Assembly: GCF_014202635.1 (NCBI RefSeq)
Contig: NZ_JACHHD010000012.1
Location: 1-64,000, forward strand
Source: Faecalicoccus acidiformans
GTDB lineage: Bacteria; Bacillota_I; Bacilli_A; Erysipelotrichales; Erysipelotrichaceae
Direction: 5' to 3'
Length of the DNA: 64,000 nt
The position numbers and the translations under genes were made by a program. Within the stretch, counting starts at the first letter, position 1, and each line of letters starts with the position of its first letter. Of this stretch, positions 2,173 to 43,910 are shown one piece after another. Below the pieces are notes generated by a model. It did no database searches, was not told the DNA's origin, and worked only from the letters and a program-made list of their open reading frames with translations.

Positions 2173-3044
2173 TCACCGTAATACATCCTTTCTTTTTTGA
2201 ATGATTCGACACAATGATTTATAGAATTCTTCTAGATCTTGTTTAGGCGGAATTCCCGATACAGATCCATCTCCAGTCTCTATGATGATCCAGGAACCAT
2301 CTTTAAGCTCTGCGTAATCAATGGTGTAAAAGCGGCTGTCTAGAAATTGATATTTCTGGATCAGCTCAACAGGAGGCATAGGAGCGTTTTCTGGCTGGTC
2401 TGAGTTTTGACAAACACTGATGATGTTTTGATCAAAATAGAAGACTCGGACTTCGTTTGTATGGTTTTCATATTTTTTCAAATCCACATATTCCTTGATA
2501 CAGATGCCTCCAGTCAGAAGATTTCCCCGGTATTGATAGAACTCTTTCATATACCGATCAAATTGGTTTTGATCAAAGCTTGCGTCAAAATACTTAGGGA
2601 AACGAGAATCTTTAACAGATTTCACAAAGTCTTTGACGATAAACTTAGGAAATTTTTTGAGAACATCCTGAATATAGATTCTCTGATAAAGAGGAACTGT
2701 TAAAATGCGAGTGTATCCTCTTTGATCTTTGGATAGATATGAGGGAACAGATGAAACTCTTCATACATTTCTGGCGTTGTGATTAAGCTTATGTTTTGTT
2801 TGCGTAACTGTTGATAAAACGCAGAATAATGTTCTGGAGTCATCATCCATTCCCGATAGACCGCAGATGTTTCGTTTTCAGGAATAGAAGAAAGCTTTAG
2901 TTTTCTGTTGTTGAACCAGGCATCATAGTCAAATAAAAGAATGTCGAATTCTTTTGTTTGAAGAGCTGCATCGTATTCAGTTTTAAGGTCTTCATCGACT
3001 TGATTTCTATCGAAAAAGGATGAAGGGAATAATAGTGTTTTCAT
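2173..3044 (-). pseudogene. R2K-type ATP-grasp ligase, split by a frameshift
   Basis: Two adjacent frames on the minus strand are halves of one ATP-grasp protein of the R2K (DUF4343-like) clade. The first half (3044-2700) has the N-terminal FDYDAWFNNR and MMTPEHYSAFYQQL regions and ends DTLAF-stop. The second reads LTVPLYQRIYIQDVLKKF, then the ATP-grasp lysine strand KFIVKDF, GGICIKEY, NEVRVFYF and the C-terminal WIIIETGDGSVSG. Adding one T to the T4 run at 2702-2705 joins them without a gap (DTLAF-LTVPL). R2K enzymes are predicted amide ligases; the substrate is unknown. The ATG at 3044 overlaps the serpin stop (ATGA). It is a real pseudogene, a sequencing error or a very inefficient recoding site. 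Confidence 0.7.
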
Positions 3045-4015
3045 AGCTGGTTTAAAACTCCTACGAAGACAGGGATAAATTGTTGGGTGACAGAATCAAA
3101 ATGCATGATTGCATAAATAAAGGGTCGATTTAAAATTACACTTCTTGAATCATATTCAAAATCAATTCCGTAATCCATGGTCGCAATGGTTTTCGCGAAT
3201 GCCACGGTCTTTATTTGAGAAAATTTGATCTGAGATTCATGGAGTATTTTTTCAATTCGTAAATGCACTGAAGTCATTCCTGAAAAATCAGCTGCCTCTG
3301 TAAACAATTCATGGATACCCAGGTCTCGTAAGAAATTCGTAAGATCTGTTTCGTATTGGGATTCAAATTGGGGCATGGCAATTTCGACATCTGCCGGATA
3401 AGCAGAATTAAAAAGTTGTGTGAAATTGCACTCTTCTATACTTCTTAATAAAGAGTCATAATTCTTTTCTTTGGGCAATAAAGCCATAAACGCATCTGCT
3501 GATGTATAGCTTTTGATGAACCCTGTAAAAGATTGATTCTCGATATACATTCTTTCAATTCTGCGCATCATTTGACATCGGCTTTTGGAACCATCTTGAT
3601 TGGTAAACCAGTCTCTATCGATATCTTTGAATGGTTTTGACCAAGTACTTTCAAAAGAGATGGTGTTGATAAAATTGATGAGTCCCGTTAAATCATCTGT
3701 TTTACAGATCTTGCCCGTAAAGCGTTGAATAAAATTAGGAACCAATGTATCAAAGATATCTTTTTGTATATGGATCTCATTGGATGTGCGACAGGCCTTG
3801 CTTGTTTCGAATAGTTTTTGTATGTCTTGATTTGATAAGTTACAGTGGATGGAATTTAAGATCTCATTTTTAGTTTTACCTTGGGTTGCTTCTGCTAAAA
3901 GAAAGAGAACTGACAAGATGGACAAAGGAGAGATAAGGGGGTTTGCATCTTGTCCATAAGCAGTTCTCTTAAAACAAATGGATGTGAATCGATGGATATC
4001 TTCTAGATCCAACAT
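3041..4015 (-). CDS. bacterial serpin without signal peptide
   Basis: A 324-residue serpin-fold protein. Recognisable blocks are NPLISPLSILSVLFLLAEATQGKTKNEI (helix A/B region), FINTISFESTW (the NAIYFKGxW equivalent), MALLPKE, VEIAMPQFE, and the C-terminal NRPFIYAIMHFDS...FVGVLNQL. It is shorter than the usual 370-400 residues, mainly before the central strand. There is no signal peptide, so it should act in the cytoplasm. The reactive-loop hinge reads KTVAFAKTIAT and lacks the glycine and alanine run of inhibitory serpins, so protease inhibition is doubtful. It starts 1 nt after the HIRAN stop and overlaps the ATP-grasp start by 4 nt, which points to one coupled operon. Confidence 0.85.
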   Translation of the reverse strand: MLDLEDIHRFTSICFKRTAYGQDANPLISPLSILSVLFLLAEATQGKTKNEILNSIHCNLSNQDIQKLFETSKACRTSNEIHIQKDIFDTLVPNFIQRFTGKICKTDDLTGLINFINTISFESTWSKPFKDIDRDWFTNQDGSKSRCQMMRRIERMYIENQSFTGFIKSYTSADAFMALLPKEKNYDSLLRSIEECNFTQLFNSAYPADVEIAMPQFESQYETDLTNFLRDLGIHELFTEAADFSGMTSVHLRIEKILHESQIKFSQIKTVAFAKTIATMDYGIDFEYDSRSVILNRPFIYAIMHFDSVTQQFIPVFVGVLNQL

Positions 4016-4016
4016 C

Positions 4017-4325
4017 TTATCGTAAGCTTCTTTCGTCTAAACGGCAGACAACACCTTGCGGTAAAACATAGAGGATCGTACCCCTGGCATTCTTGTGAAT
4101 CTTATCGTAAAGACGTCCGGCACTGTAGCTTTCACCCAGAACGGTATAACGGCTGTTCGCTACATATCCCACAGTATCAAGACCATCCATCTTGACGGCT
4201 ATGGCTTCGTTGTCATAGTCGTTTTTGCGATCTTTGACCAAACGAACCGGCATACCGACCTTCATAAAATCAGATCCGTAATAGTGATTGGTACCAGCAA
4301 TCGTAAAATAGATCGGTTTTCTCAT
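4017..4325 (-). CDS. HIRAN-domain protein
   Basis: A 102-residue protein consisting of one HIRAN domain: FTIAGTNHYYG at the start, VGMPVRLVKDRKNDYDNEAIAVKM in the middle and VGYVANSRYTVL after it. In HLTF/Rad5-type proteins this domain binds DNA ends; in bacteria it occurs alone or with nucleases and may recognise damaged DNA. The ATG at 4325 has a strong AGGAGG site 7 nt upstream and a TATAAT box at 4359-4354. It is the first gene of the cassette with the serpin and the R2K ligase. Its job there is unknown. Confidence 0.85.
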   Translation of the reverse strand: MRKPIYFTIAGTNHYYGSDFMKVGMPVRLVKDRKNDYDNEAIAVKMDGLDTVGYVANSRYTVLGESYSAGRLYDKIHKNARGTILYVLPQGVVCRLDERSLR

Positions 4326-4359: not shown

Positions 4360-4390
4360 GGAGGTCACATGTACTAAAAATTGGACTTAT

Positions 4391-5392
4391 CTAAATAGGA
4401 TATTGATTTTTTAACCGTTTGATCTCATTTTTCATCTGTTGGACAACCGATTCCGGGCCAGTGATCTGGATTCCTTGTCCCAAAGACATGATCCAGCCTA
4501 AGAATTGATTGCTGACGGAGACGGGGACCGTGGTCTTAAAATGATCTTCATCGATTGGGGTGATGGGGATATCTTTGCCAAAGCGATCGATCAGGATGCC
4601 GACTTTATCATTTTCGGCCTGAATGGTCACATTGGTCTCGATGCCGCTGAACATGCCGAATAGACTCTTGGTGTATCTTGGCAATTTGAATTCCTTGAAC
4701 TTGTTTTTTCCTTTTCGAGGCACCGGCGTCACTTCCACCTTCAACATCTTATCGACCCGGTAGTGTTTGATCTTATCTTCTTTTTCATCGTAGGCAACCA
4801 AGTAATAATTTTCATCGTCCCACATCAAGGCCCAGGGACTGACTTGGTAGTTCGATCCGTTTTTTCTTAGCTGCATATCTTTTTTGATATTCCACTGGAA
4901 GTATTTAAATTGGATCTGACATTCCTTTCCAATGGCTTCATGGATCTGATCGACATTGTAGTAGATGCTTTCGTTCATCGTTTTGACCCGGCCCGAGATC
5001 ACCACCTGTCTTTGAAGCTGTTTGCCCTCATACTTGCTGACAAGAGATTCGAGCTTTTTGATCAGTTCTTTGGATTTTTTATCGGTGATGAATTTGGCAG
5101 ATTGTACCGAGTCCACTAAGAGTTTTAATTCCGGAAGTTCAAATTCTCGGGAACCTAAATGATAATAATAGTGTTTTCCTTGTTTCCCGGAAAGAATATC
5201 GAAGCCAAATCTTCTTAATTCATCCAAATCTACATAGACCGTTTTCCGGTCTGCATTAACACCATAGTCTGCCAGTTTTTCTAAGATCTGAGGCATGGTC
5301 AAGCCATGCAGGTCATCGGTTTCTTCCGATAAAATCTTGACCAGATACAACATTTTTAGTTTTTGATTTTCACCTTTTCGTACATTTGCCAT
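4391..5392 (-). CDS. WYL-domain transcriptional regulator
   Basis: A 333-residue regulator. Residues 10-75 form an HTH_11-type winged helix (KMLYLVKILSEETDDLHGLTMPQI...DRKTVYVDLDELRRFGFDI). The WYL domain spans about residues 140-235, with the QIQFKYFQWN strand and SPWALMWDDENYYLVAYDEK in the place of the usual WYLxxY. A WCX dimerisation tail follows (GILIDRFGKDIPI...VSVSNQFLGWIMSLG). WYL proteins bind small ligands or nucleic acid and often control phage-defence or stress genes. It lies just upstream of the HIRAN cassette on the same strand, but a TATAAT box between them suggests separate transcripts, so it may regulate the cassette. Confidence 0.9.
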   Translation of the reverse strand: MANVRKGENQKLKMLYLVKILSEETDDLHGLTMPQILEKLADYGVNADRKTVYVDLDELRRFGFDILSGKQGKHYYYHLGSREFELPELKLLVDSVQSAKFITDKKSKELIKKLESLVSKYEGKQLQRQVVISGRVKTMNESIYYNVDQIHEAIGKECQIQFKYFQWNIKKDMQLRKNGSNYQVSPWALMWDDENYYLVAYDEKEDKIKHYRVDKMLKVEVTPVPRKGKNKFKEFKLPRYTKSLFGMFSGIETNVTIQAENDKVGILIDRFGKDIPITPIDEDHFKTTVPVSVSNQFLGWIMSLGQGIQITGPESVVQQMKNEIKRLKNQYPI

Positions 5393-40068: not shown

Positions 40069-40175
40069 CAACAGCGGGATGCAAAATATGTATCGCAAGA
40101 TTCCTTTTCGTTTCCAAACCAACTCCCCGTGTTTGGAACACTTAACGCACATATTTTTACTCTGCTACTAAGGGC
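40069..40175 (-). promoter_or_regulatory. tetrahydrofolate (THF) riboswitch
   Basis: On the minus strand the conserved blocks GCGTTAAGTG, GGGGAGTTG, CGAAAAGGA, CTTGCGAT and TTGCATCCCGCTG stand in the order and spacing of the THF riboswitch, and ATATGT (5') pairs with ACATAT (3') as the long inner stem. It lies about 60 nt before folT. Bound folate is expected to lower folT expression. A TATACT box just upstream at 40182-40177 is the likely -10. Confidence 0.88.
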
Positions 40176-43677: not shown

Positions 43678-43910
43678 ATAAAGACGAAGAAAAGAAGGAG
43701 TACAGAGGCTTTTCTTTACAGAGAGTCTGCGGATGGTGCAAGCAGATAAGAAAGAATCTGGAACGTGTCTTGGAGTTGCGTTGTCGAAATCGGGAGGCAA
43801 TGTCCGTGTGTTCGCGTTAAGAACGAGGTGTCATCCAGAGACATGGATGGAATTAAGGTGGTACCGCGAGTCAATCGTCCTTTTGAAAAGAAGGACGATT
43901 TTTTTTATGG
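43678..43910 (+). promoter_or_regulatory. T-box leader, specifier CGT (arginine)
   Basis: The T-box sequence AAGGTGGTACCGCG lies at 43855-43868 and is followed by an intrinsic terminator (AATCGTCCTT / AAGGACGATT, 43873-43900, then T8). Stem I begins near AGAGAGTCTG (43718-43727) with a GGTGCAAGC distal loop. The specifier loop fits GAA-CGT-GTCTTGGAG, so the codon is CGT (43764-43766), arginine. The TGGT of the antiterminator would pair with the tRNA 3' end with discriminator A. Uncharged tRNA-Arg should switch on the downstream transporter. Confidence 0.85.

Follow-up and report, generated by a model that had tools for sequence, protein, structure and literature searches.

A WYL- and HIRAN-headed serpin operon in Faecalicoccus acidiformans: a possible conflict-type accessory locus of the Erysipelotrichales with interchangeable cargo

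The stretch of Faecalicoccus acidiformans DNA analyzed here, referred to below as the window, is 64,000 nucleotides long and carries close to its beginning a compact group of genes on the minus strand. The first is a WYL/WCX-domain transcriptional regulator gene of 333 codons (4391..5392; PF13280, E 4e-12; PF25583, E 1e-7), which lies immediately 5' of an operon, 65 nt from its leading gene and in the same orientation. The operon opens with a stand-alone HIRAN protein of 102 aa (4017..4325; PF08797, E 2e-9), continues with a signal-less serpin of 324 aa (3041..4015; PF00079, E 1e-39) and ends with an R2K.3 ATP-grasp gene (2173..3044; PF14243, E 5e-24 on 2703-2173). The HIRAN and serpin genes are separated by a single nucleotide, and the serpin gene overlaps the start of the R2K gene at 3044 by four nucleotides (ATGA), so that the gene identities, the two junctions and the WYL neighbor are all as the original prediction had described them. 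Its picture of three coupled genes holds for the coupling but not for the R2K gene as one ORF, since a shift of frame near 2711 divides that gene in two. The ORF at 1302-2186 was considered as a further member of the operon and rejected; its own genome was one of just three, out of 60, with a match, and the second Faecalicoccus genome discussed below, where the contig ends inside the R2K gene, had none. Downstream of the cassette there is a ParE-like toxin gene with a DUF6290 partner (629-1193), likely a toxin-antitoxin pair, and short, imperfectly repeated units of the type GACCCCTAAA lie at the start of the contig (window 1-80, ~2 kb from the cassette). Elsewhere in the window we noted a THF riboswitch (40070-40166) and a T-box leader (43678-43885).

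Between the WYL and HIRAN genes lies a putative promoter/operator (4368..4390, minus strand), the conserved leader ATAAGTCCAATTTTTAGTACATG, which has only one match within the window. A leader of the form ATAAGTCCAATTTTT[A/T]GTACA (the ATAAGTCCAATTTTTAGTACA leader) precedes HIRAN in the window and in the genomes G002 and G204, and is near-identical in the latter two although the surrounding DNA diverges. A single operon promoter before HIRAN, as had been proposed for the three genes, is plausible because of this conservation, while a generic promoter scan did not flag the leader.

The HIRAN protein scores 37.4 bits against a PF08797 cut-off of 24.7, and its AF2 model (pLDDT 88) matches HIRAN structures with Z scores of 9.6-11.5, the closest being lp_0118 (3k2y, Z 11.5) and the HIRAN-DNA structures of HLTF (6kcs/4s0n, Z ~10); a part of HamB, from the Hachiman defense complex, is a weaker match (Z 6.3). 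Residues N35 and D38 are invariant in the A2 alignment and Y37 is mostly aromatic, which indicates that the NxYD motif found in the DNA pocket of HLTF (NPYD there, with Y93 stacking on DNA; PMC4666394) is largely conserved. From this motif we infer that the protein may bind DNA ends or single-stranded DNA; prokaryotic HIRAN domains have been described as uncharacterised (PMC11090510). In samples of the class and phylum the family is nearly confined to the Erysipelotrichales, and it is present in 102 of 272 family genomes. On IMG/VR contigs, HIRAN genes have type I and C5 methyltransferase genes in their vicinity, and one HIRAN match was found in a short phage-labelled faecal contig. The serpin and R2K proteins were not found in viral contigs, and a prophage or plasmid origin of the cassette was considered and rejected: R2K was unmatched in phage records, and for the serpin nothing better than weak matches turned up, on six plasmids and on two faecal contigs labelled as phage.

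The serpin (137 bits against a cut-off of 27) has matches in 77 of the 272 family genomes, and its closest solved relative is tengpin (2pef, E 1e-23). It had been called intracellular, which agrees with the absence of an N-terminal hydrophobic segment or any visible signal peptide. We took as the consensus for an inhibitory serpin a P17-P9 hinge of the form ExGTEAAAA together with a complete core including helix F, and the window protein departs from it on both counts. In an alignment of 45 serpins the helix F block is absent only from the window protein and its G002 counterpart, and both have lost the hinge glycine (QIKTVAFAKT in the window, EKNTIAVAKT in G002), so the Faecalicoccus serpins may not inhibit. 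The HIRAN-linked serpins of G089 and G179 retain helix F and the hinge RKGTKAAA (KGTKAAA). An AF2 model of the window serpin from a two-row alignment was unusable (pLDDT 33), and none of the genes near the cassette codes for a protease or another target.

The R2K gene has had a different past from its neighbors. Its reading frame is divided into an ORF at 3044-2700, the pre-ATP-grasp part, and a frame at 2703-2173 that carries the R2K_3 domain, with the strand-2 lysine (IVKD) and ExGD (ETGD) by which R2K.3 is defined (PMC4431377). In G002, whose matching contig is a public MAG contig labelled as uncultured Faecalicoccus, the gene is open and in frame up to the contig end, and the two parts of the window gene are 88% (N) and 92% (C) identical to it. 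DNA identity between the two species is mostly 40-80% across HIRAN and the serpin and jumps to ~91% where the serpin stops and R2K starts; synonymous sites are saturated in HIRAN (pS 0.73) and the serpin (pS 0.74), and R2K has a dS of ~0.24 with a dN/dS of ~0.2. The jump in identity and the low dS therefore mean that the R2K history is the more recent one between the two species, by recombination or transfer, and the dN/dS value indicates that the gene was under purifying selection. That value, and the open gene in G002, make the frameshift either a recent break or an assembly error; a programmed frameshift was rejected, as no canonical slippery site was seen and G002 is open without one. Window-type R2K was matched in 4 of the 272 family genomes, with high identity in only the two Faecalicoccus. 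Since R2K is thus limited to the genus, has a separate history and is broken in the window, we regard it as a genus-level addition, and the peptide-modification step that had been proposed for the cassette is not essential.

Conservation of the three genes as a unit, by which the original prediction was to be judged, is uneven. G002 has HIRAN, serpin and R2K arranged as in the window, down to the ATGA overlap, so that the grouping does recur in a relative (protein identities to the window of 78%, 53% and ~90%, the serpin being the least conserved), while R2K is close in only 2 of the 272 family genomes. The other two genomes of the genus had no HIRAN or serpin match, and in contig scans of genomes the serpin query had no match and the R2K query matched only the G002 contig. 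What recurs more widely are two pairwise linkages. A serpin gene stands directly 3' of HIRAN on the same strand in five loci from three genera (G000, G002, G089, G179 and G074), with a stop/start overlap in G089 and a spacing of 57 nt in G179. From the numbers of genes and the sizes of the genomes, a simple Poisson calculation puts the chance expectation at 0.008 such pairs among the 40 genomes that have both genes, an excess of ~600-fold. On a tree of the 45 serpins the HIRAN-linked label needs at least three changes; four of the linked serpins fall in one clade of ten. The fifth belongs to G074, begins with what looks like a lipoprotein signal and sits in a clade far from this one. Just over half of the family loci (36 of 70) have a WYL gene no more than 1.5 kb from HIRAN; it always lies on the 5' side and is divergent in 34 of the 36, the co-directional exceptions being the window and G204, where a WYL ortholog stands directly 5' of HIRAN. 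In G002 the HIRAN flank has no WYL gene, which is found on another contig. Thus the WYL-HIRAN and HIRAN-serpin linkages exceed chance, whereas that of R2K may still be a matter of chance. Separately, G204, which belongs to another genus, has a WYL fragment (L140:5884-6435, on G204:C22) that is ended by a stop and matches the window WYL protein at 94.5% identity along 183 aa; this suggests that WYL genes have been transferred recently.

The position behind HIRAN appears to accommodate a variety of genes. In 38 HIRAN loci the following gene is on the same strand and no more than 100 nt away. Among these the serpin is the largest cargo family with five members, one of which (L091) had been listed for its serpin; the remaining cargo consists of many small, diverse families. 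Some HIRAN loci carry whole defense systems. A complete type II Wadjet system, with JetA2 (in two frames), JetB2, JetC2 and JetD2, lies behind a WYL-HIRAN pair in L187 (G263:C7:165000-178500), and a complete BREX system (BrxA, BrxB, BrxC, PglZ, PglX and BrxL) begins ~100 nt behind HIRAN in L188 (G163:C95). In L189 (G162:C9:193000-203260) a complete type II-A CRISPR-Cas locus, with Cas9, Cas1, Cas2 and Csn2 genes and a repeat array with a period of 66 nt, follows ~200 nt behind WYL-HIRAN, and a type IV methyl-directed restriction gene lies on the other side, beyond WYL. An SNF2 helicase gene stands behind HIRAN in L190, and in G179 genes for a zinc-ribbon protein and a BnzB-like protein come after HIRAN-serpin. 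Most HIRAN loci have no recognisable defense gene behind HIRAN, and cargo such as flavodoxin, YhhN, TPR and DUF2130 proteins is not known to act in defense. We treat the defense cargo as an uncontrolled, suggestive pattern rather than as a calibrated enrichment. As further observations on these loci, the G163 genome has seven HIRAN matches; macro-domain proteins lie behind HIRAN in L145 and L167; an AAA ATPase gene follows HIRAN in L191, with ADP-ribosylglycohydrolase-like and macro-domain-like proteins further on; and DUF2130 or DUF2130-like proteins recur beside WYL-HIRAN pairs (L168, L178 and L190:6165-7625).

At the window itself the picture is plainer. PADLOC had no match to the serpin or R2K, a weak match to HIRAN and a generic one to WYL, and catalogued defense systems behind HIRAN were encountered in the relatives only. 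A defense island around the cassette was sought and rejected: the window genes scanned gave helicase and nuclease domains, which we take to be those of genes resembling ComF and AddA/AddB, and no dedicated system. Proximity to defense genes, one of the checks proposed with the original prediction, was seen behind HIRAN in some relatives and not among the scanned genes of the window.

We tentatively favor, at somewhat less than even confidence, a reading in which the cassette is one version of a conflict-type accessory locus of the Erysipelotrichales, led by WYL and HIRAN and carrying interchangeable cargo, here a cytosolic serpin that would trap a protease. The WYL protein might sense single-stranded DNA, as PafBC and DriD do, or a nucleotide arising from DNA damage or phage attack, and, if it behaves like PafBC, DriD, CapW and BrxR, would control the operon; named WYL factors bind single-stranded DNA or control defense loci (PMC11804915, PMC12340889, PMC9122588, PMC9122601). 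HIRAN would bind DNA ends or single-stranded DNA, and the serpin made with it would covalently trap an intracellular serine protease that is active in the emergency, either a phage enzyme or one of the host's own that the conflict sets free. Many phage prohead proteases are of the serine type and are produced in the cytosol, which makes the prohead maturation protease an attractive, if speculative, candidate. DNA could conceivably serve the serpin as a cofactor, since it accelerates inhibition by chloropin 142-fold (PMC10090351), and R2K would be an optional ligase attaching amino acids or peptides to a target protein. The linkages, the HIRAN fold and the variable cargo are observed, while the defense role and the protease trapping are what we infer. 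The DNA- or phage-responsive system with protease control that was originally envisaged fits with the recurrent WYL-HIRAN and HIRAN-serpin pairs and the defense cargo of relatives, and the peptide-modification step is not essential to it.

The alternative that fares best would make WYL-HIRAN a DNA-stress pair whose downstream genes are ordinary accessories on its promoter, with the serpin a general, stress-made inhibitor of cytosolic proteases and no role against phages. Prokaryotic serpins have indeed been proposed to keep stray proteolysis in the cytoplasm in check (PMC8233489), and the flavodoxin, YhhN, TPR and DUF2130 cargo, like the want of a dedicated defense system among the scanned window genes, would be expected of it. 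Against it stand the three complete defense systems and the SNF2 helicase behind HIRAN in relatives, and a serpin link that has recurred, with at least three changes on the tree; we consider it unlikely, if still a serious competitor. A bolder version of the favored reading, in which HIRAN and the serpin together make up a new system for anti-phage defense or for DNA-stress conflict, is more doubtful again: WYL and HIRAN would sense foreign or broken DNA, the serpin would disable a serine protease that the invader needs, and the DNA held by HIRAN might be a template that speeds the serpin. Decay of the Faecalicoccus cassette, with a non-inhibitory serpin, a dead R2K and only WYL-HIRAN still useful, strikes us as improbable to a slightly greater degree. 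It would account for the missing helix F block and altered hinge in both species, the frameshift in the window R2K and the low conservation of the serpin (53% against 78% and ~90%), but the serpin frame has stayed intact in both species despite synonymous saturation, with conserved blocks remaining, and the dN/dS of R2K and its open frame in G002 place the break recently or in the assembly. That unrelated genes were juxtaposed by chance, as the rarity of window-type R2K and its sharply different history from that of the serpin might hint, is very improbable given the ~600-fold excess of HIRAN-serpin pairs, the WYL-HIRAN pairs in half of the loci and the ordered trio in G002, and for WYL-HIRAN and HIRAN-serpin it is already contradicted.

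The original prediction knew of no described system of this composition, and the literature searched agrees with it, having no paper with both a serpin and a WYL domain, and papers with serpin and HIRAN together that were all unrelated. The recurrent tie of serpin, HIRAN and WYL provides the role of bacterial cytosolic serpins with a concrete and testable setting, and a HIRAN-serpin conflict system, if true, would be a first case of serpins acting in bacterial immunity. The WYL-HIRAN pair could also mark further systems, as its macro-domain, DUF2130, SNF2 helicase and DUF3990 cargo is uncharacterised in such a setting.

Each component of the cassette has relatives in known systems. The R2K protein shares PF14243, the RAGNYA lysine (IVKD), ExGD (ETGD) and the strand arginine (NEVRV) with the R2K.3 family of Burroughs 2015, which has been described beside GNAT, R2K.2 and ADP-ribosylglycohydrolase genes, with HIRAN and serpin unmentioned (PMC4431377); the window copy differs in being frameshifted. 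The serpin is, by sequence, of a kind with tengpin, chloropin and the siropins, among which tengpin is the closest solved structure, but it is set apart by the lack of a visible signal peptide and of the helix F block, by its altered hinge and by its place in a HIRAN operon. With HLTF HIRAN and Lactobacillus lp_0118 (3k2y) the HIRAN protein has the fold in common (Z ~10-11.5) and mostly retains NxYD, whereas identity is only ~20%, no helicase is attached and the position of HLTF Tyr72 is, by alignment, His. The HipL and HipN proteins of HipA-type toxin-antitoxin loci are likewise bacterial HIRAN proteins with predicted binding of DNA ends or single-stranded DNA and a proposed link to phages (PMC8262856); their HIRAN domains are fused to HipS-like or kinase domains, unlike the stand-alone, kinase-free protein of 102 aa in the window. 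In overall layout there is a parallel with the BrxR and CapW loci, where a WYL factor is likewise the leading gene and BREX, CBASS or other systems are the load (PMC9122601, PMC9122588). HIRAN and serpin are both unmentioned in PMC9122601, and what distinguishes the loci described here is that the WYL factor is paired with a stand-alone HIRAN gene, mostly in divergent orientation.
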